A stretch of 34,741 bases of DNA from Deltaproteobacteria bacterium (lineage in GTDB: Bacteria > Desulfobacterota > Desulfobacteria > Desulfobacterales > C00003060). Below are positions 15,225 through 32,286 of this stretch, piece after piece; position 1 is the first letter of the stretch, and each line of letters starts with the position of its first letter. The position numbers and the translations under genes were made by a program. The notes below the pieces were generated by a model, which saw only the letters and a list, made by a program, of their open reading frames with translations, had not been told where the DNA came from and made no database searches. The stretch covers positions 1 through 34,741 of the forward strand of contig JAFGFW010000071.1 in the NCBI GenBank assembly GCA_016930875.1. The letters run 5' to 3'.

Positions 15225-16325
15225 ATGCGTGCATTACTCTTTTCTTCACGACTGACTGTTTTGCTTATGGCCCTCACTTTCCTTATGGTGGCGCCTCCGT
15301 CTTCTGCCTTCCCTGCCCAAGAAGGCGCTTATCTTGTTTTTCATAATTTCTCCCCTCCAGAATCCCTAACCCTGTGCGGTGAGCCAATGCCCCTTGAAAA
15401 CCGCCGCGTTTGGGAAATGCTTGACCGTGAATTTACCATAACTGTCTGGGACCGAGCCCAAGTGTTCATGTGGCTTAAGCGGTCAGGACGTTATTTCCCA
15501 TACGTGGAAAGGAGGCTGGCCGAGGAGGGCATGCCTGACGACCTGAAGTACCTTGCGGTGGCTGAGAGTTCTCTTCTCACGCATGCCCGATCCAGCGACG
15601 GCGCCAGGGGACCATGGCAGTTAATGACCCGTACTGCCCGATCCAATGGCATTCGCAAGGACCACACCATGGACGAACGGCTGGACATCGAGCAGGCCAC
15701 TGAGGTGGCCATTAAGTACCTTAAGCGTCTTAAGGATAAGTTCGGTACGTGGACATTGGCGTTAGCCGCATACAATTGCGGAGAAGGATCTCTGAAAAGA
15801 GAAATGAAGAAGCAGGGAGTCACTGACTACTACAGGCTCAACCTGCCCCTTGAGACCGAGCGATTCATCTTCCGCATTGCGGCTATCAAGATTGTTATGG
15901 ACAATCCGATGCGCTATGGATACAGCCTGCCAAAGGAAGAGATCTACAGACCTATCGAGTGCGATACCGTGTCGGTCAACATCCGGGTCCCCCTCCACAT
16001 AACGGATGTTGCCCAAGCCCTTGGCACGGACTTTAAAGTTCTCAGGGAGCTCAATCACAAGATCCCCGGCTATTATCTGCCCACCGGATCTTACACAATT
16101 AAGGTTCCGTCCGGGCAGGGTTCCAAGATGGCCGATGTTCTGAATGATCTCACCAAAGTCGCTTCCCGTCGCATGCAACATGATTCCTATTATGTGGTTC
16201 GGAGGGGCGACACCTTGAACCATATTGCCAGACGAAGGAAGGTCACTGTAGCGACCCTAAAAAAACTCAACAGCATCCAAGGTTCTCTGATCATGGTGGG
16301 GCAAAGGCTCCGGCTGATCCCTTAG
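15225..16325 (+). CDS. MltD-like membrane-bound lytic transglycosylase with LysM
   Basis: About 366 residues. A signal peptide (LTVLLMALTFLMVAPPSSAF) is followed by an SLT catalytic domain: LKYLAVAESSLL with the catalytic glutamate, GARGPWQLM, DERLDIEQATEVAIKYL and LALAAYNCGEGSL. A middle segment (VPLHITDVAQALGTDFKVLRELN) may be a degenerate LysM, and a clear LysM (YYVVRRGDTLNHIARRRKVT to MVGQRLRLIP) closes the protein. It cleaves peptidoglycan strands in the periplasm. The start is ambiguous: ATG 15225 lacks a close ribosome site, while TTG 15210 has AAGGA upstream. The stop overlaps the convergent fusion gene by four bases (TTAG). Confidence 0.9.
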   Translation: MRALLFSSRLTVLLMALTFLMVAPPSSAFPAQEGAYLVFHNFSPPESLTLCGEPMPLENRRVWEMLDREFTITVWDRAQVFMWLKRSGRYFPYVERRLAEEGMPDDLKYLAVAESSLLTHARSSDGARGPWQLMTRTARSNGIRKDHTMDERLDIEQATEVAIKYLKRLKDKFGTWTLALAAYNCGEGSLKREMKKQGVTDYYRLNLPLETERFIFRIAAIKIVMDNPMRYGYSLPKEEIYRPIECDTVSVNIRVPLHITDVAQALGTDFKVLRELNHKIPGYYLPTGSYTIKVPSGQGSKMADVLNDLTKVASRRMQHDSYYVVRRGDTLNHIARRRKVTVATLKKLNSIQGSLIMVGQRLRLIP

Positions 16326-18274
16326 CTCATTGCCTCCAGCATTTCAGTCTCTCCATGACTCAGCAATCGGTCTGTGCCGAGCAGAATTCTTACCCCTTTT
16401 TCAGTCTTGGCCATGCCAAGGATCACTTCTGTGTCCACGTCGACTCCAAACGATGGAGTCTTTTCAATATCTTCGCCTGTGAGGTTCAGAACCTCGGAGA
16501 CCGAGTCGACCACCATGCCAACTTCCATCTTGTCGGAATTCCCATTGACCTCCACAATAATAATACATGTTCGCTCATTATAGCCCAACTCTTCCAGGCC
16601 AAACTTAAGCCTCAGATCGATCACCGGAATCACCTTATTCCGCAGATTGATGACTCCTTTAAAAAAAGGAGGAGTTTGTGGTATAGTACGTATGGGCGTC
16701 ATCCCGATGATCTCTTTTACAGAGGTGATACTGATACCGTACTCTTGATGGTCCAGAGCGAAGATAAGATTTTTTCCTTCCTGTGCCAACATGTTCTTTG
16801 TATCAAGATCGCTTGTGTGGCGATCAACAATCCTTGATACGACTTTGGACAGGTCATGGAAGTTGGACGAGCGTCTGACTGAACCAGCGGTATCACAAGC
16901 AACCTCGGCAAACCGCGTGTCCACAAAATTTTTCAGATCAATCAATGTCCCGACACCCATTTCCTCGACCATGTATCGCTGAATCCTATCGAGGTCTTCA
17001 ATGACGGGAAATAGATCATCTGTCTTTATCCCTTGAGGTTCTTTAAGGACATTCTTTAGTACTGGAACCTTGAGACCCAATATGTTTTGAGGATCCAAAA
17101 AATCAACGGCGATTTCTGCGGCTTTGTCCGGTCGTTGAGCAATGAACTGCCCGGACTGTACCAACATTGTGGTGAGTTCCTGGACCACCTCAGGATGGGC
17201 GTTGATAAGTTCGTCTCGCACTGCAACTACACAACAGGGATGATATTGCCAAAGCTCTGCCGAAAGAAACATAAGATCTCCACTGTTTGCCGCGATGGCC
17301 TTCGTGCCCAAAGGCTCTGCTACAGTGTATCCACCTACCTCAGGATTTTTTGCCAGAAACTCCGGCATCTTGACTGGTGGGACTACCTCAAAGCAGACAT
17401 CGACGCCTTCCTGGCCTGCTACTCCCGGCTTGAGACCGAGCTGTCGCAAGAACATCGTTGAAAGCATGTGATGAATCGAAAGCATATGAGGGATGTAAAA
17501 GCTCTTACCTTTAAAAAACTGTTGTAGAGATCCTTTGTTTGAACCTTTCTTGTTGCTCACGCAGATACTGCCGTTTTTGTGGGCCAAAAGAACCAATTTT
17601 ATCGGCACATGGAAACTGAAAAGATCCATGGCAATCGGGGCCAGAATGAAGGCCGCATCAATATCGCCCTTTTCGAGGGCTTTTTGCAGGGGGTTCCAAC
17701 TCGACATGCATTGCGTTTCCAGTTCAAAATGCTTTGGGGCAAGCTTTTCGGTTGCAATCAAATGCTTTAAAACCCCGAGGGTTAGATGATCGGTGATCTG
17801 AATGTGGGCTACGCTCAATCGCACCTTTCCGGAAGCAGCCTTTTGGGGAAGCCTTGCTTTTCCGACATCTTCACCTTCACCATCCTTTTTTGCCCCAAAG
17901 GTTTCTTCAATCACGATTTTCAGCTCCTGTGCTGAAAATGGCTTGGTAATAAAACTACTTACACCTGCCTCTTTGGCCTTAAGAGTCTGTTTTTTTTCTG
18001 CCTGGGCCGTTGCCATAATGAAAGGCGCGTCCTTCCACTTTTCATCCGCCCTAACCCAAAGCAGCAGGTCATAGCCTCCCTTGTTGGGCATATTCCAGTC
18101 GCTGATAATAAGACGAACATCTTCGTCTTTTTGGAGCATCTGGATGGCCGCATCACCATCATCAGCTTCAACGATATTGGCGAAGCCCACTTCCTTGAGA
18201 ATCTTCACTTCCATCTTCCGGGTAAGTTTGGAATCTTCGACCAACAGGATTTTCATTTCAAGATCTACCGTCAT
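16322..18274 (-). CDS. Receiver - NrtA/NasS-like solute-binding - CheW fusion
   Basis: This 650-residue protein has three parts. Residues 7-128 are a CheY-like receiver (MKILLVEDSKLTRK, phospho-acceptor D59 in IISDWNMP, K111 in FITKPF). Residues 150-455 look like an ABC-type nitrate/sulfonate/thiamine-precursor binding protein (VRLSVAHIQITDHLTLGVLK, LEKGDIDAAFILAP, GGYTVAEPLGTKAI, LWQYHPCCVVAVRDELINAH). Residues 500-642 are CheW (IFALDHQEYGISITSVKEII, KGVINLRNKVIPVIDLRLKF). There is no signal peptide, so the binding domain is cytoplasmic, as in NasS. CheV is normally CheW then receiver; here the order is reversed with a sensor between. ATG 18274 is chosen for GGGAGGT upstream; an ATG at 18289 lies before that site. 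Confidence 0.9.
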   Translation of the reverse strand: MTVDLEMKILLVEDSKLTRKMEVKILKEVGFANIVEADDGDAAIQMLQKDEDVRLIISDWNMPNKGGYDLLLWVRADEKWKDAPFIMATAQAEKKQTLKAKEAGVSSFITKPFSAQELKIVIEETFGAKKDGEGEDVGKARLPQKAASGKVRLSVAHIQITDHLTLGVLKHLIATEKLAPKHFELETQCMSSWNPLQKALEKGDIDAAFILAPIAMDLFSFHVPIKLVLLAHKNGSICVSNKKGSNKGSLQQFFKGKSFYIPHMLSIHHMLSTMFLRQLGLKPGVAGQEGVDVCFEVVPPVKMPEFLAKNPEVGGYTVAEPLGTKAIAANSGDLMFLSAELWQYHPCCVVAVRDELINAHPEVVQELTTMLVQSGQFIAQRPDKAAEIAVDFLDPQNILGLKVPVLKNVLKEPQGIKTDDLFPVIEDLDRIQRYMVEEMGVGTLIDLKNFVDTRFAEVACDTAGSVRRSSNFHDLSKVVSRIVDRHTSDLDTKNMLAQEGKNLIFALDHQEYGISITSVKEIIGMTPIRTIPQTPPFFKGVINLRNKVIPVIDLRLKFGLEELGYNERTCIIIVEVNGNSDKMEVGMVVDSVSEVLNLTGEDIEKTPSFGVDVDTEVILGMAKTEKGVRILLGTDRLLSHGETEMLEAMS

Positions 18275-18332
18275 TTTGTTACCTCCCATGTCACCAAGAC
18301 ATTGACATTCCTTCTTTTTTCATTCACGGTTT

Positions 18333-18436: not shown

Positions 18437-19264
18437 TTACTGCTTGTGATACACAGTTGGCTTGATGTATTTGAAACCATGGTCAATACCCGTCAAGCTC
18501 TCTGAATGTCCAATAAGCAGGTAACCGCCGTCCACAAGACAATCATAGAACTTGTTGACCAGCATTTGTTGAGTCTGTTTGTTAAAGTAGATCATGACAT
18601 TGCGGCAGAAAATAAAATTGAAAGTTCCTCGAAATGGAAAGGAGTCCATGAGATTGAACCGCTGAAATTTGATCATGTCCCTTATGGATCGTTTGACCCG
18701 AAAACGACCTTCCTGGCTTCCGTAGCCTTTCTGGAAATACTTCCTGAGTGTGGGTTTTGGGATTTTCGCGAGCCGATCCGAGCTGTAGATCCCGGTCTTT
18801 GCCCGTGCCAGAACCTTGGTGGAAATGTCAGTGGCTAGCATCTTCGTATCAAAAGGCTGGCTGTCGCCGAAGTATTCCAACACACATATGGCCAGAGAAT
18901 AGGGCTCTTCACCACTGGAACATCCTGCACTCCATGCACGCAGCTTTTTGTAGCGTCCGTTTTCGGCAACACATGAAGGAAGAAGCGTGTTTTTTAAGAA
19001 ATCAAAGTGCTTTTCCTCTCGAAAAAAGCTGGTTAGATTTGTGGAGACTGCGTCGAGCATCCTTACCAGCTCGTCTCCACTGTCATCTTCCAGCACGAAG
19101 TTGTAATAGGTCCGAAAATCCTTGAAACCTCCCTCACGCAGCCGCTTGCTCAGCCTGGCACGGACCAATTCTTTCTTGCCCCCGTGCAGTTCGATGCCGC
19201 ACTTCTCATGAACCAGGGCGCTGAAACGCCAGAAATCGCGATCTGACAACTCTGAACCAATCAC
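18437..19264 (-). CDS. cheR: Chemoreceptor glutamate methyltransferase
   Basis: CheR methylates glutamates on chemoreceptors using SAM. The 275-residue product has the N-terminal helical domain (GIELHGGKKELVRARLSKRL), VSTNLTSFFREEKHFDFL, the SAM-binding LRAWSAGCSSGEEPYSLAI (108-126), TDISTKVLARAKTGIYS, FNFIFCRNVMIYF and GGYLLIGHSESLTG. All are typical. Its ATG overlaps the cheA stop by four bases, so the two are translationally coupled. A beta-subdomain able to bind a receptor pentapeptide is expected, which fits the EFKNF tail on the MCP of this cluster. Confidence 0.97.
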   Translation of the reverse strand: MIGSELSDRDFWRFSALVHEKCGIELHGGKKELVRARLSKRLREGGFKDFRTYYNFVLEDDSGDELVRMLDAVSTNLTSFFREEKHFDFLKNTLLPSCVAENGRYKKLRAWSAGCSSGEEPYSLAICVLEYFGDSQPFDTKMLATDISTKVLARAKTGIYSSDRLAKIPKPTLRKYFQKGYGSQEGRFRVKRSIRDMIKFQRFNLMDSFPFRGTFNFIFCRNVMIYFNKQTQQMLVNKFYDCLVDGGYLLIGHSESLTGIDHGFKYIKPTVYHKQ

Positions 19265-21531
19265 GCTGATGCTTCCTTAAGTCCGGTTGTTGTCTCTCCA
19301 ATTTCAAGCAATCCTGCGACATCCAGGATAAGCCCCACGCGACCATCGGCCAGTATTGCTCCGCCGGCCATCCCCTTGACTTTCTTCAGTTGTTCTCCAA
19401 GGCTCTTGATCACCACTTCCTGTTTGCCAATCAGCTCATCCACCAGGAGGCATTTGCGCTGGCCGTCACTTTCCGCCACCACCACGATGGCCTCCCATGG
19501 ATCCTTGTGCTGGGGCTCAAAATCAAAGACATCGTGAAGTCTGATCAACGGATGCAGATTATCCCGGATTTTGATCATCTCACCTTGGTTCACCACACTG
19601 TTATAGGCAGCTTTTTCCGGCCTGATGGATTCTACCACGGATATGGTTGGTATGATGAAATCCCTGTCTCCAGCCCGGACCATGATGCCGTCAATAATCG
19701 CCAGGGTCAGGGGCAGTTTCATCAGGATCGTTGTGCCCTGATCTTTGACCGAATCGACCTCCACCTTTCCCCGCATCTTTTCAACCGCGCGTTTTACCAC
19801 GTCCATACCAACTCCCCGGCCTGACACATCGGTAACGTTCTCGGCGGTAGAAAAACCAGGCTGAAAGATCAGGCCGTAGACATCCTGATCAGACAATTCT
19901 TCTCCACAGGTTATCAGGTTTCGCTCGATGGCCCTGTTGATGATCTTTTCCCGGTCAAGACCCTGGCCGTCTTCTGAGATCTCAATGACGATATTGCCGC
20001 CCTTGTGATAAGCCTTCAACTTCACTGTTCCAGTCTCCGGCTTGCCGGCAGCCTTTCTGACCTCAGGTTTTTCAATGCCGTGGTCCACCGAGTTCCTCAC
20101 CATGTGAACCAAGGGATCATAGATCTCGTCCACCATGTTGCGGTCTATTTCCGTGTCCTCACCGATCATCTCCAGGTGGACCGGTTTGCCGGATTTTTTC
20201 GAAAGATCGCGCACCAGTCGAATCATCTTCTGGAAGGTCTGCTTGATAGGCATCATGCGCAAGCTCATGGAGGTCCTCTGAATCTCACAGGTAATCCTGC
20301 CCAGTTGAGAAAGGTTTGTATAAAGGCTTTTATCCTGGGCCATAAAAGCACTCATACCTTGGGCTAACATCGCCTGGGTGATGACCAACTCCCCTACCAT
20401 GTCCACCATGTTATCCAGCTTCCGGGTGTCTACCTTGATAAAAGCAGCCTCCCGAACCGCCTTGCCGGGAACCGCTGAAGCACCTCGACGCTCCTTCTGC
20501 TCTCGAAGGGCGGCGGCTACATCCCTGGCCCCAACCTTTTTATCTTCCATCAGGATCTCACCGATCTTCTTATCTGATGGGGGTGGCCCGGCTTGTCTCT
20601 CAAGGGCCTTGGCCACCTGTTCCTCGGTGACGATCCCTTTTTCGATCAAGATATTTCCTGTATCGGCCCCATCAGACGAGGGGGTCGGTTTGGTTTTTTC
20701 CTGGTCTTCTTCAACCTCACCTGGCTGGAGCTTTCTTAATCGATCCACAAAGGCCTCCAGGCCAAAATGAGCCGGCTCAACCACGCCCGTGGCAAGGCCT
20801 TGGCTCAGATGGTTGATCATGGCCTTCATCAAATCCACTGCGTCCAACACCACGTCCGTGATGGCCTCATTGACCGTCAGTTTCTGATTTCTGGCGTCGT
20901 CCAAAAGGGTTTCCACCTCATGGGCAAGACGGTTGATATCAGAAAGATTCAGGAAACCGGACACGCCCTTGATCGTGTGGAAGGGTCTGAAGATCGCGTT
21001 GATCACCCCCGGGTTCTCAGGATCCTGTTCAAGAGAGAGCACATTGACTTCTATGGTTCCAAGATGTTCCATGGACTCCATGATGAAGCTTTCTACAAGC
21101 TCTTTATCCTGGGCAATGTCCACCCCCGGTTTGGCCTCATCAGCACCGGCAGATTCGCCCTCTTGGTCCATGGCAGCCGTATCATCGGACAAGCCACATT
21201 TGCGAAGATAACCTGAAATCTTCTCGGAACAAGCCTCCACATCTTCCGGATCCCTCAAGACCTCCTGAAACAAAGAGATGCCATCTTCGATTTGCTTTAC
21301 GGCTTGCTGTGGCTCTGGATGCTCGTCTAACACCAATTTTTCCGCAATGGACTTTATGCCCCTTGCAAGATCGCAAAAGCTGGCCTTGTCGGCTTTTGTG
21401 CACACCCCAACTATCTCGTCCAAAAGGTTCAGGGCTACACCAAAGCCCCCCACATCCTTTGGACCCAGCATCACCACTTCCAGGGCGAGCTTTTCGATCA
21501 ACTCTGTGGCCGTATTTAGATAATTTTCCAT
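19261..21531 (-). CDS. cheA: Chemotaxis histidine kinase CheA with extra linker module
   Basis: A 756-residue CheA. Residues 1-115 are helical with no obvious phospho-site. The HPt domain follows, with H185 in FRPFHTIKGVSGFL. Residues 292-346 hold two short repeats (GNILIEKGIVTEEQVAKALE and KKIGEILMEDKKVGARDVAA) like those at the N terminus of GspE/MshE ATPases. Then come the P3 dimerisation helices (KLDNMVDMVGELVITQAML), the P4 ATPase (HMVRNSVDHGIE, EDGQGLDREKI, GFSTAENVTDVSGRGVGMDV) and the P5 CheW-like domain from about 612. It phosphorylates CheY and CheB. It lacks an obvious CheY-binding P2 domain in the usual position. Confidence 0.96.
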   Translation of the reverse strand: MENYLNTATELIEKLALEVVMLGPKDVGGFGVALNLLDEIVGVCTKADKASFCDLARGIKSIAEKLVLDEHPEPQQAVKQIEDGISLFQEVLRDPEDVEACSEKISGYLRKCGLSDDTAAMDQEGESAGADEAKPGVDIAQDKELVESFIMESMEHLGTIEVNVLSLEQDPENPGVINAIFRPFHTIKGVSGFLNLSDINRLAHEVETLLDDARNQKLTVNEAITDVVLDAVDLMKAMINHLSQGLATGVVEPAHFGLEAFVDRLRKLQPGEVEEDQEKTKPTPSSDGADTGNILIEKGIVTEEQVAKALERQAGPPPSDKKIGEILMEDKKVGARDVAAALREQKERRGASAVPGKAVREAAFIKVDTRKLDNMVDMVGELVITQAMLAQGMSAFMAQDKSLYTNLSQLGRITCEIQRTSMSLRMMPIKQTFQKMIRLVRDLSKKSGKPVHLEMIGEDTEIDRNMVDEIYDPLVHMVRNSVDHGIEKPEVRKAAGKPETGTVKLKAYHKGGNIVIEISEDGQGLDREKIINRAIERNLITCGEELSDQDVYGLIFQPGFSTAENVTDVSGRGVGMDVVKRAVEKMRGKVEVDSVKDQGTTILMKLPLTLAIIDGIMVRAGDRDFIIPTISVVESIRPEKAAYNSVVNQGEMIKIRDNLHPLIRLHDVFDFEPQHKDPWEAIVVVAESDGQRKCLLVDELIGKQEVVIKSLGEQLKKVKGMAGGAILADGRVGLILDVAGLLEIGETTTGLKEASA

Positions 21532-21573: not shown

Positions 21574-22683
<1,110 letters not shown>

Positions 22684-23109
22684 CTAAAAGTCGTTCCCCT
22701 CAAGGGCTTCCTTGCCGTCCATGGATGCCTCATCCATACCGAGCACATCCACTAACATTTTTTTGATCTCCTCTGGCCTGAAGGGCTTCTTGATACAAGC
22801 CTTGGCACCCAGGCTCTTAAGCTCATCGATCCGTTCTTCTCGACCCTCTGTGGTCACAATTACAGTAGGCGTACTGGGCACAATGCCTTGCTCTTGCAAG
22901 GCCTTCAAGAAGGAAAAACCATCCATCTCAGGCATGTGAACGTCGGTCAGGATCACGTCCGCCCACTCCTTGTCAAGCACAGCCAATGCCTCCACGCCGT
23001 TTGCCGCCTCAAAGATCTGGCCGATATCAAAGCCGGACATCTTAAGAGTCTTCTTGATGACACTTCGCATGGACGATGAATCATCAACAATCAATACATT
23101 AAATGCCAT
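22684..23109 (-). CDS. cheY: CheY-like single-domain response regulator
   Basis: A 141-residue stand-alone receiver: VLIVDDSSSMRSVIKKTLKM, phospho-acceptor D56 in VILTDVHMPEMDG, VIVTTEGREERIDELKSLGA and the conserved lysine in CIKKPFRPEEIKKML. The sequence and place beside cheB/cheA fit the CheY that carries the output signal. The extra 15 residues at the C terminus (DEASMDGKEALEGNDF) are acidic. ATG 23109 has GGGAGGAT upstream. It starts 11 bases after the HDOD gene. Confidence 0.92.
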   Translation of the reverse strand: MAFNVLIVDDSSSMRSVIKKTLKMSGFDIGQIFEAANGVEALAVLDKEWADVILTDVHMPEMDGFSFLKALQEQGIVPSTPTVIVTTEGREERIDELKSLGAKACIKKPFRPEEIKKMLVDVLGMDEASMDGKEALEGNDF

Positions 23110-23120
23110 GGGATCCTCCC

Positions 23121-23969
23121 CTAAACCAACCTCAACATATCCCGCACCTTGTCGTACTGGCGGCAAAAATCGACCATGATTTTTTGCAGATCCTCTATCC
23201 CCAGGCGGTAACGTTTCGCGAGTTCCTCCCTTCCACGATAAGACAACCCGTCACGCCCCACGCCAATGCCCATAGAAAGCGTTAGGATGTTGGCAAGGTA
23301 AATGATAGGCGTAATCACATCATCTTCCCGGGCCTCCTCAGCCCTGTGATGCAGCCGTATGGCTCGAACAATATCTTCAGGAAAATTCCACGATTCAGCG
23401 ATTTTTGCACCCACCTCGGCATGGTTGATACCTAGCATCTTGCTTTCGGCTTCCAGGAAAGAACACTCATCTTCATTGACCAGCCCAATGATCTGCTCAA
23501 TGTATCTATCCACAAAACCATCGAGGACGACTTTTCCTATATCGTGCAAAAGGCCTGCGGTAAACAAAGACGAGGGCTCGGACTTCATCACACGAGCAGA
23601 GACAATCTTGGACATGATCCCCGTCGCCACGGCGTGTTTCCACAGTTCGCCCTTGGCAAGATCATACCCTTTATTGTCGTGCCGGAAGAACTTAACCACC
23701 GTGCTTGCCAGGATGATATTCTTCAACTCCGCATTGCCCAAAACCACCAACCCCTGCCGCAGGGAGTCGACCTTTCTCGTGAGCCCATAATAGGCCGAAT
23801 TGCAGAGTTTCAATACATTTGCCGTGATCGTCTGATCATACTGAACAACGGGGATGACATCATCTGCCGACGCATCGGGATCATTCAGGATCTTCAGGGC
23901 TTGAGTAGCCACACTGGGAAAGGGCGGCAGCTCCTTGATCGCCCCGGTTATTTCTTCCACAGCAATCAC
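23121..23969 (-). CDS. HDOD-domain protein
   Basis: A 282-residue protein with the HDOD fold: ELPPFPSVATQALKILND at the start, VVQYDQTITANVLKLCNSAYYGL, LRQGLVVLGNAELKNIILAS and LFTAGLLHDIGKVVL. HDOD proteins usually lack catalytic HD residues; here H112 (WKHAVATG) and H142-D143 are present, so a metal site is conceivable. HDOD proteins act as regulatory platforms for c-di-GMP or stress signalling. The start is a GTG that overlaps the cheD stop (GTGA), so it is translationally coupled to cheD. No ATG is available near. Confidence 0.88.
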   Translation of the reverse strand: MIAVEEITGAIKELPPFPSVATQALKILNDPDASADDVIPVVQYDQTITANVLKLCNSAYYGLTRKVDSLRQGLVVLGNAELKNIILASTVVKFFRHDNKGYDLAKGELWKHAVATGIMSKIVSARVMKSEPSSLFTAGLLHDIGKVVLDGFVDRYIEQIIGLVNEDECSFLEAESKMLGINHAEVGAKIAESWNFPEDIVRAIRLHHRAEEAREDDVITPIIYLANILTLSMGIGVGRDGLSYRGREELAKRYRLGIEDLQKIMVDFCRQYDKVRDMLRLV

Positions 23970-24445
23970 AACCTCATTTCTCCTTTGCCAGAGACTTTGA
24001 GGACAAGCTCTCCTGTGGCAATATCCAGCCACATGGTCCGATTCGATGTGCCCCCTATATCCTCGGCATCGATCATCACGTGGTTTCGCCAATAGATCTT
24101 CCTCAAAGCCGCATAGTTTCGTTTTCCGATGTTAAAACTCCCTGAAGGGTCCATGATCTGAGAACCGCCGGCCACCTTGGAAATCATCCGCTTTTTGTCG
24201 GCGCCAAGCTTGTAACAGGCTTTGAACAGGAGCGGGATCCCTGTATCGGCAAACATCAAAGGCCTGGTTTTGGCCTTGTTAGGATCCAACTCGGATTCAG
24301 GAAGCATATAATGGAGCAGCCCTCCCACCTTGGCCACGGGGTCATAGACGGCCACACCAATACATGAGCCCAATGAATGGGTAGCCAGGGTCACATCAGG
24401 GTCATCACTCACCTTCATGTCCGCTATACCTACATTAATATTCAA
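23966..24445 (-). CDS. cheD: Chemoreceptor glutamine deamidase CheD
   Basis: CheD deamidates receptor glutamines. The 159-residue product carries the active-site block ATHSLGSCIGVAVYDP with T22 and C28, and H45 in GLLHYMLPE, completing the Cys-His-Thr set. Later segments RPLMFADTGIPLLF and NIGKRNYAALRKIYW are typical. Its ATG overlaps the stop of the upstream receiver gene by four bases, and its stop overlaps the HDOD start, so four genes are tightly coupled here. Confidence 0.95.
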   Translation of the reverse strand: MNINVGIADMKVSDDPDVTLATHSLGSCIGVAVYDPVAKVGGLLHYMLPESELDPNKAKTRPLMFADTGIPLLFKACYKLGADKKRMISKVAGGSQIMDPSGSFNIGKRNYAALRKIYWRNHVMIDAEDIGGTSNRTMWLDIATGELVLKVSGKGEMRL

Positions 24446-24825
24446 AGCTCTAGTCCCTTGTCCAGAACGTCTCTGATCGCCCTCAAGATCTCCTGCCGTG
24501 TGAAGGGCTTACACAGTGTGTGCTGCGCACCTAGCTTCTTGGCCAAATACAGATATTCCTCTGGTGAAATACGGCCGCCCCCGGACATGGCAATGATGGG
24601 CACGTGTGGGAAGTCGCGCCGAAGTTCCATGATGGTTTCAAGGCCCTCCTTATCCGGCATGATCAAGTCTGTGATGACCAGGTCAACCCATTCCTGATGG
24701 CAGAGTCTTAACCCCTCCTTGCCGTTAGAAGCCTCCAGGACGTCGTATCCCTCGCGCTTCAAAATCTGCCGGAGCCATTTCAGTGTTGTAATGCTATCAT
24801 CTACGATAAGAAGGGAATTCTTCAT
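24442..24825 (-). CDS. Single-domain response regulator
   Basis: A 127-residue receiver distinct from the cheY at 22684: LLIVDDSITTLKWLRQILKR, D53 in LVITDLIMPDKEGLETI, IIAMSGGGRISPEEYLYL and K107 in LCKPFTRQEIL. The SGGG in place of a simple T/S-A step is typical of receivers in non-flagellar-type clusters. The start ATG at 24825 lies inside the end of the upstream small gene (24797-25012), a 29-base overlap suggesting coupled translation. No output domain is present. Confidence 0.9.
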   Translation of the reverse strand: MKNSLLIVDDSITTLKWLRQILKREGYDVLEASNGKEGLRLCHQEWVDLVITDLIMPDKEGLETIMELRRDFPHVPIIAMSGGGRISPEEYLYLAKKLGAQHTLCKPFTRQEILRAIRDVLDKGLEL

Positions 24826-25012
24826 TTTTGATCCTGTTGTAAATCTTACATTCCGTAAACTTGTCACCAGAATAATATACTGCATAGCCTGTTTTCCAGC
24901 TGTTCATGTTAACGCAGTAACAGTCCTTATGAGAGTCCTCAACAAAAGGGCACATTTCTTTCAAGTCATCTTGTTTTTTGTATAGTGTTTTATTATCAGT
25001 GGCCATAGTCAT
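24797..25012 (-). CDS. Small cysteine-containing protein
   Basis: A 71-residue protein with cysteines at 21, 31, 33 and 55 (MCPFVEDSHKDCYCVNMNSW, then GDKFTECKIYNRI). The CPF...CYC...C pattern is familiar to me from small uncharacterised proteins of Desulfobacterota, so I believe it is real; four cysteines could bind zinc or an iron-sulfur cluster. An ATG two codons downstream (25006) is an alternative start. The ribosome site is weak (GAAAGAT). It leads the cheD-cheR block and overlaps the next gene by 29 bases. Confidence 0.6.
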   Translation of the reverse strand: MTMATDNKTLYKKQDDLKEMCPFVEDSHKDCYCVNMNSWKTGYAVYYSGDKFTECKIYNRIKNEEFPSYRR

Positions 25013-25394: not shown

Positions 25395-27359
25395 TTAGAA
25401 GTTTTTGAACTCACCCTCATCCATAGGGATGACGTCTTCAGGTGTGACTTGCGTTGCCTTTTTGATAGCTACCACTTCTTTGCTCGCGGCCTCCTTTCTT
25501 GCAGGAGGCGCAAGGGCCTTTCGAATTGCAGTAGCAACCCCTGTGGTGCCAGTCATTTCTTTTCTGCTTACTGCATGCTCCGCATGCTCCTTACCACCTG
25601 CTTGATTCCCGCTTCCGCCAACAAAGGCTGAGAGATCCCGCACAATACCTTTCATATTCTCGGCCTGGGCATTCAACTCCTCAGAGGCTGCGGCAGACTC
25701 CTCGGCATTGGCCGCATTCTGCTGGGTGACCTTGTCCATCTCGCTCGTGGCTTTATTGACCTGCTCAATCCCCTGGGCCTGCTCGTTAGAGGCCGCAGCG
25801 ATCTCGCTAACCAGCTCCCCCACTTTGGTAGCATTTGTGGTAACCTCGGAAAATGCATTAGCTGTTTCGGTAACCACGTCTGATCCGTTCTTTACCTTCT
25901 TCACGGTGTTTTCGATCAGAACCGCTGTGTTCTTGGCAGCCTCGGCAGACCTCATGGCAAGGTTTCTGACCTCTTCTGCCACAACGGCAAATCCTGCGCC
26001 TGCTTCACCGGCCCTTGCCGCTTCAACCGCAGCATTTAAGGCAAGCAGATTGGTCTGAAAGGCGATCTCGTCAATTGTCTTAATGATGTTTGAGGTCTCC
26101 TCACTGGCCTTGCTGATCTCTCCCATGGACTTGGTAAGATCCTCCATGGAGTTGCTGGCCTGGGTCACTGTCTGGTTGGCTTCCTTCATGAGACCGTCTG
26201 CCTGATTGGCATTGTCGGCGTTTTGTTGGGTCATGGAAGACATCTCCTCTAAAGATGAAGAGGTCTCCTCCAGGGCTGCTGCCTGCTCTGCCGCGCCTTC
26301 TGCCAGAGACTGGCTGGCAGATGAGACCTGGGCCGAGGCAGCGGACACCTGCTCAGCGCCTTCATTCAGGCCCTCGATAATACGGTTTATAGGCTTGGTA
26401 ATAGCCCTGGTGATAAAAAAGGCAAGCAACGATCCAATGACGATCGCTACCAGGGAACCGATCATCATAACGCTTTTGGCTGTGGATATCTGGCTGTCCA
26501 TCTTGGCTTTTTGATTGGCACGGGCCTTGTCGCAGACCTCATTAAGGGTTCTTGCTGCCGTTACCATGTCGGCGTCGGCTTCCACTTGCTTTCCTTTTAT
26601 TGTCACAAGCTCATCAAAGGACGCCTTATAGCCCTGAGCCGAGGCAATTATCTGATCGGACTGCTGTTGGTTTTTGGCCTGGTTGAACCGTGACTTTATG
26701 TCCCGGGCCAGATTGACGATATCCTCCACACACTTGTGCACACGATCGACATACATCTTGTCGCCGCGAATAATAAAGTTCTTTTCCTGCCGCCGGGATT
26801 CTAGAACCCAATTGATGATGCGGTTGGCATCATCGGCCTTGGTCAATTTGTCGTTAAGCTGCGCACCCTTAGCGTTTGCCTCACGCAGTGTTCCATATTC
26901 TGCTTTTTGCTCCTGGCGCATGGTCTCAGCAAGCGCTATAAGCGCTCTGGCGTTTTTTACCATGGTTGCATCGGCGACTTTGCGTTTTTCTGCAAAGGCC
27001 ACATATTCGCCAAACGACTTTTCGTATCTTCCGGTTGCCGCCGTGGCCTCGTCCATCTGCTGTTTGTTAACCGGGTCTTTGAATTTGACTTTGGTCTCGT
27101 TCGCCTGCTTTTTTATGGCCTCTGTTTGCTCTACAACCTGATCAACATATTTTTTTTCTCCGCGAATAATGAAATTCTTTTCGTGCCGGCGCGATGTCAG
27201 CATACGTTCTATCAACTGGCTGGTATCATCGGCCTTATCCACCCTGTCCACAACGCCTGACATGCCGTTGTAACCCACAAAGGCCACCACAGCGAACAAG
27301 ATCAGCACAATAGCAAACCCGCCGGCTACCTTGGTCCCAAGTTTCATATCCCTCAACAT
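25395..27359 (-). CDS. Methyl-accepting chemotaxis protein with tandem helical sensor
   Basis: A 654-residue chemoreceptor. TM1 spans about 11-32 and TM2 about 297-316, with a 265-residue periplasmic, all-helical sensor between. The sensor contains a duplicated motif: [18 protein letters not shown] at 56-73 and [18 protein letters not shown] at 188-205, as in helical bimodular (HBM) sensors. A HAMP segment ([16 protein letters not shown]) and the signalling tip ([20 protein letters not shown]) follow. The C terminus EFKNF fits the aromatic-x-x-aromatic tail that tethers CheR or CheB. AAGGAGGG lies eight bases before the ATG. It sits directly after cheW. Confidence 0.95.
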
Positions 27360-27541: not shown

Positions 27542-28054
27542 TTACGCCGCTTTCTCCAGGATAGCCATTTCTTCAGCGCTGAGAACTTGATCGATATCTA
27601 GGAGAATCTTGACACCGCCTTCCATCTTGGCCATTCCCAGAATGTACTCTGTGTTCAGCTTGGGGCCGAATGTTGGGGTATCTTCGATTTCCTCACCCTT
27701 GATGTTTAGTACTTCCGACACCGAATCGACCACAATGCCGATAAGCACAGTTCCCCCCTGGTCCGCGATTTCCACGACAATGATGCAGGTACGCTCCGTG
27801 TACTCCATTTCCTCCATGCCGAACTTGAGCCTCAGGCCCACTACCGGTATTACTTTGCCGCGAAGATTGATCACGCCTTTCACATACTCGGGTGTCTGGG
27901 GAACAGAGGTGATCGGCATCATCCCGATGATCTCTTTGACCTTCAGGATGCCGATGCCATACTCCTCTTCTGCCAGGGCAAAAGTGAGATATTTTGCCTC
28001 CTTGTCTGACGCGGCTTTCACCGCCTGATCCATTGCTTCACTTAATTCTGCCAT
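27542..28054 (-). CDS. cheW: Chemotaxis coupling protein CheW
   Basis: CheW links chemoreceptors to CheA. The 170-residue product has YLTFALAEEEYGIGILKVKEII, VPQTPEYVKGVINLRGKVIPV, ERTCIIVVEI and GIVVDSVSEVLNI, all diagnostic. It is clearly similar to the CheW part of the fusion protein at 16322 (KVKEIIGM, VINLR.KVIPV, VVDSVSEVLN), suggesting that one arose from a duplicate of the other. AAGGAGGTG precedes the start. It lies 106 bases after the thioredoxin-like gene, separated by a tandem tract. Confidence 0.97.
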   Translation of the reverse strand: MAELSEAMDQAVKAASDKEAKYLTFALAEEEYGIGILKVKEIIGMMPITSVPQTPEYVKGVINLRGKVIPVVGLRLKFGMEEMEYTERTCIIVVEIADQGGTVLIGIVVDSVSEVLNIKGEEIEDTPTFGPKLNTEYILGMAKMEGGVKILLDIDQVLSAEEMAILEKAA

Positions 28055-30202: not shown

Positions 30203-31548
30203 TTATCCGTCCAGCGCCTTTCGAATGGTCTTTGCCATCTCCGCAGTGACAACGGGCTTCATGACGTACGCCGAAATGTCCATGGCCTCCTCTTCTGTGA
30301 TCTGTTCACTGAAACCCGTGCAAAGTACTGTGGGAATATCGGGTCGAATCCGAGTGAGTTGTTGGGCCAATTCTTTGCCCGTCATATTCGGCATGATTTG
30401 GTCAGTGATGACCAAATCGAAGCTGTCTGGTTCAGCCCTGAAAGCCTCCAGGGCCTCGATGCTGCTCGTTCTTGCAACGACCTGATAACTAAGACGCTCT
30501 AACATCAACTTTAAGGAGTCAACCACTATTTTCTCGTCGTCCACCAACAGTATTCGCTCGTTGCCCTTGGGAAGTTGTGCGGCCGGCCCAACGCCAGGCG
30601 CTACCTCTTCTTCCTTGGCCCTTGGAAAATAGACATGGAAGGTAGTCCCCTTTTCAGGTTCACTATCAACAGTGATTGCTCCACTATAGTTTTTGAAAAT
30701 ACCATGGACCACAGCCAGCCCCATACCGGTCCCCTCACTGCGATCCTTAGGGCGAAAAAGGGATCAAACATACGTTCCACGACTTCTGGGTTGATACCGC
30801 GTCCTGAATCACTGACGGTAAGTCTCGCATATGAGCCGGATCTCAGATCCGGATGTGTGGCCGCAGCATCACCGTCAAGTTCCATGTCTACGAGGCTTAC
30901 TTCCAGCACGCCTCCCTTCTTTCGCATGGCATGGGCGGCATTAGTGCAAAGATTCACGATCAAGCCAGCACCCTGTCGGAGTCCGCCTTAAGTTCTTTCC
31001 TAATCTCGATGGTTGTCGCCAACGAAGATCGGAGCAGTTCAAGGACTTCTTTGACAATGGGACTCAGTTGTAAGGGGACTCGCTGCGGTTCAGTCTGGCG
31101 GCTAAAGGTGAGAATTTGCTTTATGAGATTCTTGGCGCGATGGCCTGCCTTAAGCACCTCCTGCAAGTTGAGGCGGGTGCGATCTTCCTTTTCAAGGTTA
31201 AACATAGCTAGCTCTGTCTGAACCATGATAGGCGTAAGGATATTGTTGAAATCATGGGCGATGCCCCCGGCAAGGGTGCCGATGGCCTCCAGCTTCTGAG
31301 CTTGTCGGAGTTGGCTTTTAAGGCGCTTTTTGTCCGTTATGTCCTCTCCAGAAGGCATGGTTAAACCGGGTAATTTTGGCCTCCGTATCCCATACAATGA
31401 TAGGAGCATTGGCGTAGTTGAACAGCTTTTCCAGATAGTCGCGCTTCTTCCCAAGGGTCTCCTCCGCCCGCTGGCGCCGAGTAGTTTCTGATTGTAATTT
31501 GTGGTTAAGCGATTCGAGTTGCTTTGCTGATTCCGCTTTCATTTCCAA
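30203..31548 (-). pseudogene. Broken hybrid sensor kinase (PAS-HisKA-HATPase-receiver)
   Basis: Parts of one hybrid kinase lie in order but in different frames. A coiled-coil and PAS start (LEKLFNYANAPIIVWDTEA, RFNHAF) breaks near 31350, where some 60-70 PAS residues are missing and the frame shifts to GEDITDKKRL. HisKA (EAIGTLAGGIAHDFNNILTP) then stops at 30960 (DSDRVLA-stop), where about seven residues before the N-box plus one base are missing; the N-box resumes as LIVNLCTNAAHAM. A third break lies at a T5 run near 30755-30759, between FDPFF and EGTGMGLAVV. The HATPase end and a C-terminal receiver (ILLVDDEKIVVDSL, LVITDQIMPNMTG) follow intact. The N-terminal sensor is missing. Confidence 0.8.
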
Positions 31549-31977
31549 CTCCAGGGCATTCCAAAAGTTGTTATTCTACCGTGTGCCAGTGGTGTAATGT
31601 TTTGAGTTCGAAAATGCTGTGCCGCTTTATTGGCAGCATGAATCATGCCATAGTGTTATAGATACACTATTCTCCTTAATTCCCGACAGTTGAGGTTTTC
31701 TTGTCGTGGGATTTCGATTTTGACTTGTTGGTAAATAGGGTTCATATGCTTCTAATTTATCAAGATTTTGACGTTTGATAGCGGTAGGCTAACAGCGCGG
31801 GGCAGGTTTGGGATGGACCATGTCCGTGGGGTGAAAGAAGTTGGCTGGATTCAAAAACTCACAAGTTCTAGGGGAAGAACATCTTTTCCGAGTTTACCAG
31901 AGAGGAGTGCACAACCATGTCACCTGTCATCGCTCTGGATATCTCGCAAAAGATTTCTGAAAAAACGGCTTAACTTT
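31549..31977. other. Junction between the broken kinase and the IS remnant
   Basis: No intact gene is recognisable in these 429 bases. A perfect 7-bp dyad ATAGTGT/ACACTAT with a 7-base spacer lies at 31650-31670. From 31768 a plus-strand frame leads into the transposase remnant, but its first 70 codons show no transposase similarity that I can see. The stretch probably holds decayed kinase sensor sequence or IS flank. Confidence 0.4.
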
Positions 31978-32286
31978 CTGAATACTCATGCGCCAGGCTC
32001 TTTGTATGAAACATTTCCACCGGATCATGCGAAGGGGCTACGGGACAGGTTCTGGTTCGTGTACACTCCCAAACATGGAAGCTGGTTAAATATGGGTGAG
32101 ATTGAATTGAACGTCCTTATCGGCCAGTGCCTGAATCGACGAATCAATGACATTAATGTGGTCAGAACAGAATCGTTGGCTTGGCAGGAACATAGAAACA
32201 ACAAAGGCGCCAAAGTCAATTGGCAGTTCACAACTGAGAATGCACGGACAAAACTGATCCGTCTTTACCCGACACTAGATGGTTGA
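31978..32286 (+). mobile_element. IS630-family transposase remnant (C-terminal part)
   Basis: The last 102 codons match the DDE_3 end of an IS630-type transposase: LNTHAPGSLYETFPPDHAKG, FWFVYTPKHGSWLNMGEIEL with the last catalytic glutamate, QCLNRRINDI and VNWQFTTENARTKLIRLYP. A complete protein would be about three times longer and carry two aspartates upstream; that part is gone. The element is therefore inactive. Its position beside the broken kinase suggests that its insertion, or a deletion linked to it, removed the kinase sensor region. Confidence 0.85.

Follow-up and report, generated by a model that had tools for sequence, protein, structure and literature searches.

The 34,741-nucleotide stretch of Desulfobacterota DNA analyzed here (the window) encodes on its minus strand a protein in which a receiver domain (REC), a solute-binding domain (SBP), and a CheW domain are joined, referred to below as REC-SBP-CheW. 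The gene and its features are as follows:

16322..18274, minus: REC-SBP-CheW gene, with its ATG at 18274 and its stop ending at 16322, 650 residues in one frame
18281..18287, minus: Shine-Dalgarno-like GGGAGGT before the ATG at 18274, read by eye
17909..18250, minus: receiver domain, residues 9–122, with phospho-site D59, acidic D14, T89, and K111
16883..17830, minus: predicted cytoplasmic NMT1_2 solute-binding domain, residues about 149–464, from Pfam, AlphaFold2, and structure matches
17231..17242, minus: H345-P-C-C348 motif, part of the predicted ligand site, from its invariance and its alignment to CmpC HPGK and NrtC QPKK
16355..16768, minus: CheW domain, residues 503–640, with an NLR motif (R545), from Pfam and structures

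Pfam profiles matched the 650-residue protein as Response_reg at 9–122 (E 4.9e-22, far above the curated cut-off), NMT1_2 (PF13379) at 149–389 (E 4.2e-27, 96 bits against a cut-off of 24.7), and CheW (PF01584) at 503–640 (E 7.5e-33, 113.5 bits against a cut-off of 23.5), bearing out the order of receiver, NrtA/NasS-like domain, and CheW that an earlier note on this DNA had read in one frame. The coordinates and the three domains given there were correct, the strand being minus, and the two receiver residues it had named, D59 and K111, are, like D14 and T89, identical in 35/35 aligned receivers. The arginine of the CheW NLR motif, R545, is identical in 31/31 aligned. This conservation makes both ends of the protein look functional, and the receiver residues that phosphorylation by CheA would require are present. 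Neither an export signal nor a membrane anchor was found in the 650 residues, which begin with a receiver strand, and the maximum hydropathy is 1.69, versus 2.74 for the membrane chemoreceptor (MCP) of the window, used as a control. The N-terminal receiver and the lack of an export signal or a comparable hydrophobic stretch support the cytoplasmic location that had been proposed.

The gene is the last of a same-strand chemotaxis cluster that runs cheW, MCP, receiver, cheD, HDOD, cheY-like, cheB, cheA, and cheR, so that it closes a che operon, in agreement with the chemotaxis context first assigned to it. The remaining members are:

18437..19264, minus: cheR
19261..21531, minus: cheA (Hpt, H-kinase_dim, HATPase_c, CheW)
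21574..22602, minus: cheB, from a shorter start within the 21574–22677 ORF
22684..23109, minus: CheY-like receiver
23121..24092, minus: HDOD protein
23966..24445, minus: cheD
24442..24885, minus: receiver-only protein
25395..27359, minus: membrane chemoreceptor (HBM sensor, MCPsignal)
27542..28054, minus: separate single-domain CheW

Since the window also encodes this separate CheW, which shares 60% identity with the CheW domain of the fusion, the fusion is no replacement for CheW. A second cheA and FliG are present in the genome of the window. No transporter was detected among the genes near REC-SBP-CheW in the window, and the neighbors therefore give no clue to the ligand. Also on the minus strand, at 30203–31454, a hybrid histidine kinase seems to be split over three overlapping frames, 30203–30724, 30601–30963, and 30960–31454, as if frameshifted. 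An ORF at 31768–32286 resembles a transposase fragment, as judged only by eye.

Searching other genomes for the same domain order recovered 41 distinct REC-SBP-CheW proteins of 638–731 residues from independent genomes, which belong to Desulfobacterota and to two or more further phyla. When species genomes were scanned, 14 loci at 48–95% identity came up, including Desulfonema magnum, whose genome is complete, and Desulfatibacillum alkenivorans. The recurrence of this order in 41 proteins, with a complete genome among their sources, excludes a chance fusion and the misassembly that the earlier note had considered. At E<=1e-25, the middle domain occurs in 28/395 Desulfobacterota genomes, mostly within the three-part protein, which is found in at least 20 of the 395; in further phyla, entered through MAGs titled KSB1 and Ignavibacteria, the fusion is present in 5/82 and 4/198 genomes. 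Within the genus of the window itself, it is carried by some species only. All 25 fusion-carrying genomes tested have CheA, versus 145/198 in the background, as expected, and FliG is present in 30/35 genomes. In the window, and likewise at L009, L010, L012, L013, L014, L070, L081, and L106, cheA/cheR or MCP genes lie beside the fusion. In most genomes it lies outside a che operon, and its context thus gives no proof of array membership.

In CheV, a CheW domain is followed by a receiver with no domain between them. REC-SBP-CheW resembles CheV in carrying one CheW-like domain and one receiver in one soluble protein, a predicted adaptor of the array with phospho-feedback, but here the receiver comes first and is followed by a 315-residue solute-binding domain and then by CheW. 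This order makes the protein CheV-like rather than CheV, and assignment as a classical CheV was rejected on the domain order and the extra NMT1_2 domain. Literature searches, whose coverage did not extend to a CheW-domain survey (Proteins 2023), returned no description of a receiver-NMT1-CheW protein. REC-SBP-CheW is a real, conserved, and apparently undescribed family, a putative CheV-like adaptor with an internal sensor.

The earlier note had likened the middle region to a two-lobed binding protein. The AlphaFold2 model (mean pLDDT 89) agrees: in structure comparisons, its residues 150–464 best matched 3UN6, a zinc-bound ligand-binding component of an S. aureus ABC transporter (Z 36.9, rmsd 2.0), and also matched NrtA (Z 36.9), CmpA (Z 35.2), the SsuA fold, and the cytoplasmic regulatory domains of CmpC (Z 35.0) and NrtC (Z 33.7). 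A two-lobed solute-binding fold of the NrtA/CmpA/SsuA type is therefore strongly supported by the model, and the outcome that the earlier note had named as refuting its reading, a middle region without two lobes, did not arise. The two ends of the protein matched CheY folds (Z about 24) and CheW structures (TM 0.74–0.88) in the PDB search. The C-terminal domains of CmpC and NrtC are cytoplasmic, serve in regulation, and have the fold of the middle domain (Z about 34–35), but they are fused to an ABC ATPase and carry hinge lysines at the positions of C347-C348. 3UN6 shares the tryptophan, H232, SxH, E320, and the two cysteines but is a transporter component and lacks H163, H345, the receiver, and CheW.

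Ten residues of the putative ligand site (D162, H163, W193, H232, S236, S266, E320, H345, C347, and C348) are invariant in 44/44 fusion domains, and H268 is present in 43 of the 44, with one H268Q. This near-perfect retention, in domains that are mostly 46–70% identical overall, argues for selected ligand binding. The same residues are found in 13/13 REC-SBP domains without a detected CheW, among which L020 ends at a contig edge. From homologous positions, the conserved residues are assumed to cluster in one pocket. C347-C348 align with the KK of NrtC (QPKK) and the GK of CmpC (HPGK); the lysine-type hinge of these proteins is absent from all 44 fusion domains, which have HPCC instead. In the alignment, H268 pairs with the SMH-motif histidine of CmpC, either at H409 or at a position adjoining it; H409 (changed in H409Q) is a putative ligand residue, and the cytoplasmic domain that carries it has the NMT1_2-type fold. 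Such a Cys/His/Glu set would suit a metal, or a ligand that a metal holds, and the site formed by D162/H163, W193, H232, H268, E320, H345, C347, and C348 speaks for a transition metal (Ni, Zn, or Fe) or for a small ligand held by a metal, for instance CO or cyanide.

HPCC is also present in many periplasmic, leader-bearing NMT1_2 proteins, and most exported relatives sampled have H-x-C-C, so the idea that the motif is peculiar to the fusion was rejected. The closest periplasmic ABC-type relatives carry the full residue set and, with a permease and an ATPase, adjoin CooS (L055, L056, and L057). Such NitT/TauT binding proteins, linked to clade-B Ni-CODH, resemble the middle domain in identity (about 35%) and in the full D-H-W-H-S-SxH-E-HxCC set, but they are exported, work with a permease and an ATPase, and have Ni as their proposed ligand (PMC6344411). 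The link to clade-B CODH and the homology to 3UN6 were described by Inoue 2019, who proposed plain Ni import (PMC6344411), and a 2026 study found mainly ABC transporters in clade-B CODH operons (PMC13056359).

Other HPCC-type periplasmic binding proteins lie near nit1C-type radical SAM genes (L171, L173, L174, L175, and L178), assigned by NCBIfam (MSMEG_0568-type) in L171 and L175 and by eye, from a GGAGPAEG motif, in L173, L174, and L178; a flavodoxin-like reductase is sometimes found near these loci. In L171, the radical SAM protein is fused to a MSMEG_0567-type GNAT domain. We equate the MSMEG_0568-type radical SAM and MSMEG_0567-type GNAT proteins with NitD and NitE, which belong to the nit1C cluster for cyanide assimilation. 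The candidate common thread of the CODH- and nit1C-linked relatives is a metal or a CO/cyanide-type ligand, and, judging by motif and gene neighbors, a transition metal or CO/cyanide-like ligand is likelier for the middle domain than nitrate or sulfonate. At two loci (L015 and L119), the fusion gene has a complete ABC importer directly behind it, and the importer's binding protein shares the tryptophan, histidine, SxH, glutamate, and HPCC with the fusion, which suggests that one compound may be both imported and sensed; at L110, an ATPase gene follows the fusion. A leader-bearing H-x-C-C binding protein (L058:8884-9900) is encoded within a chemotaxis operon, with CheW-CheW on one side and an MCP on the other, and is possibly the periplasmic partner of that MCP.

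The REC-SBP part is a mobile module, found with other outputs, or with none. It stands alone in the window's own genome (C95) and in L021 and L022, is repeated in a 1205-residue REC-SBP-REC-SBP-CheW protein (L105:6790-10407), and is joined to an anti-sigma-type HATPase_c_2 and STAS in L107:1880-4093, L108:6716-8935, and L109:6452-8770. The genes of these REC-SBP-HATPase_c_2-STAS proteins adjoin one for CheA or for a CheA-REC hybrid; those of L107 and L108 also stand beside a REC-SpoIIE phosphatase. The arrangement is a possible partner-switching chemosensory unit. Its occurrence without CheW or with HATPase-STAS indicates that REC-SBP is not tied to chemotaxis. Leaderless stand-alone SBPs are encoded in the window's own genome (C30), beside the fusion in L018, L079, and L080, and beside REC-SBP in L111 and L112; the copy on C30 (L053) lies near REC-PilZ and NifU_N/phosphatase proteins. 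In the tree, the REC-bearing domains fall into a single clade (support 1.0), whose sister group is the leaderless stand-alone copies, and the two together exclude all exported ones; the binding domain looks to have entered the cytoplasm in a single event. In one genome (G035, contigs C17, C38, C58, and C200), at least 20 NMT1_2 matches were found, several in frames of 630–918 residues, and other fusions of this domain may therefore exist. Tentatively, REC-SBP could be an undescribed cytoplasmic module whose Cys/His pocket reads an intracellular metal or CO/cyanide-type ligand and whose outputs, CheW to the CheA array or HATPase-STAS to a partner-switching unit, are interchangeable.

We infer, as the best explanation and one that is somewhat favored overall, that REC-SBP-CheW acts in the chemotaxis array as a cytoplasmic sensor and adaptor, with a ligand that is not nitrate-like. 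The CheW domain would dock the protein into the CheA/receptor array in the fashion of CheV, and closure of the middle domain on an intracellular ligand would alter the coupling between receptor and CheA, so that the state of the cytoplasm biases the kinase. The receiver, probably phosphorylated by CheA, would act back either on the adaptor or on its binding of ligand and reset the protein, a step for which the ligand-dependent contact between NasS and NasT offers a parallel in trans. That the binding domain of a CheV-like adaptor has instead lost its sensing role and now serves as a scaffold or as a spacer for protein interaction is quite unlikely: binding-protein folds can be co-opted, and a leaderless relative (L113:3281-4222) lacks SxH and HPCC, but the retention of the ligand-site residues across the 44 diverged fusion domains speaks against it. 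The earlier note had invoked NasS, a cytoplasmic NrtA relative that regulates a REC protein (PMC3795266). The note was right on structure and in its general idea, and the comparison holds as a precedent, since in NasS, too, a cytoplasmic NMT1_2-type binding domain acts together with a receiver (PMC3795266); NasS and NasT, however, are two separate proteins, the output of NasT is ANTAR/RNA, and NasS is reported to keep all nitrate-coordinating residues (PMC3795266), a site not conserved in REC-SBP-CheW. With HPCC at its hinge, the middle domain is not a NasS, and C347-C348 in place of the hinge lysines make nitrate unlikely, so that the nitrate-type pocket did not hold up. Sensing of nitrate, nitrite, bicarbonate, or sulfonate in the manner of NasS, NrtA, CmpA, or SsuA would fit the fold and the profile matches to SsuA_fam and NMT1_2, but the SsuA_fam profile (TIGR01728, NCBIfam) scored 65.2 bits on the 650-residue protein, below its cut-off of 163.5, HPCC replaces HPGK/QPKK, and the nearest solved relative is zinc-bound. 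A nitrate or sulfonate sensor is disfavored by the hinge and the sub-cut-off score, and we regard this whole group of ligands as similarly improbable.

Two further proposals draw on the genes found beside relatives. The domain might sense a diatomic ligand, or a metal complex of one, through a metal bound by the Cys/His residues and direct movement toward or away from CO or cyanide, as the closest periplasmic relatives beside CooS, in agreement with the published clade-B CODH link, and the HPCC binding proteins beside nit1C-type radical SAM genes, with the GNAT fusion in L171, would allow. This argument is guilt by association across subfamilies, and plain Ni import has been proposed for the CODH-linked proteins (Inoue 2019, PMC6344411); we consider this role unlikely. 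The importer genes located after the fusion at L015 and L119, the ATPase at L110, and the presence of this domain in CmpC and NrtC, where it regulates a transporter, would agree with a protein that mainly regulates a neighboring ABC importer or gene expression, with CheW serving for polar placement. Most copies, including that of the window, have no adjoining importer, and the genes next to the window copy are all che genes; we hold this to be the least probable of the alternatives.

Cells that steer by their internal or metabolic state usually need a receptor to do so. A soluble adaptor with its own ligand-binding domain, if REC-SBP-CheW is one, would be a new route by which chemistry in the cytoplasm reaches CheA, and the receiver offers a feedback loop that can be tested. 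Through this protein, an internal chemical probably steers swimming without a membrane receptor. REC-SBP-CheW also allows a genetic approach to the ligand recognized by NitT/TauT proteins of the large HPCC class, which are encoded beside CO dehydrogenase and nit1C-type genes.
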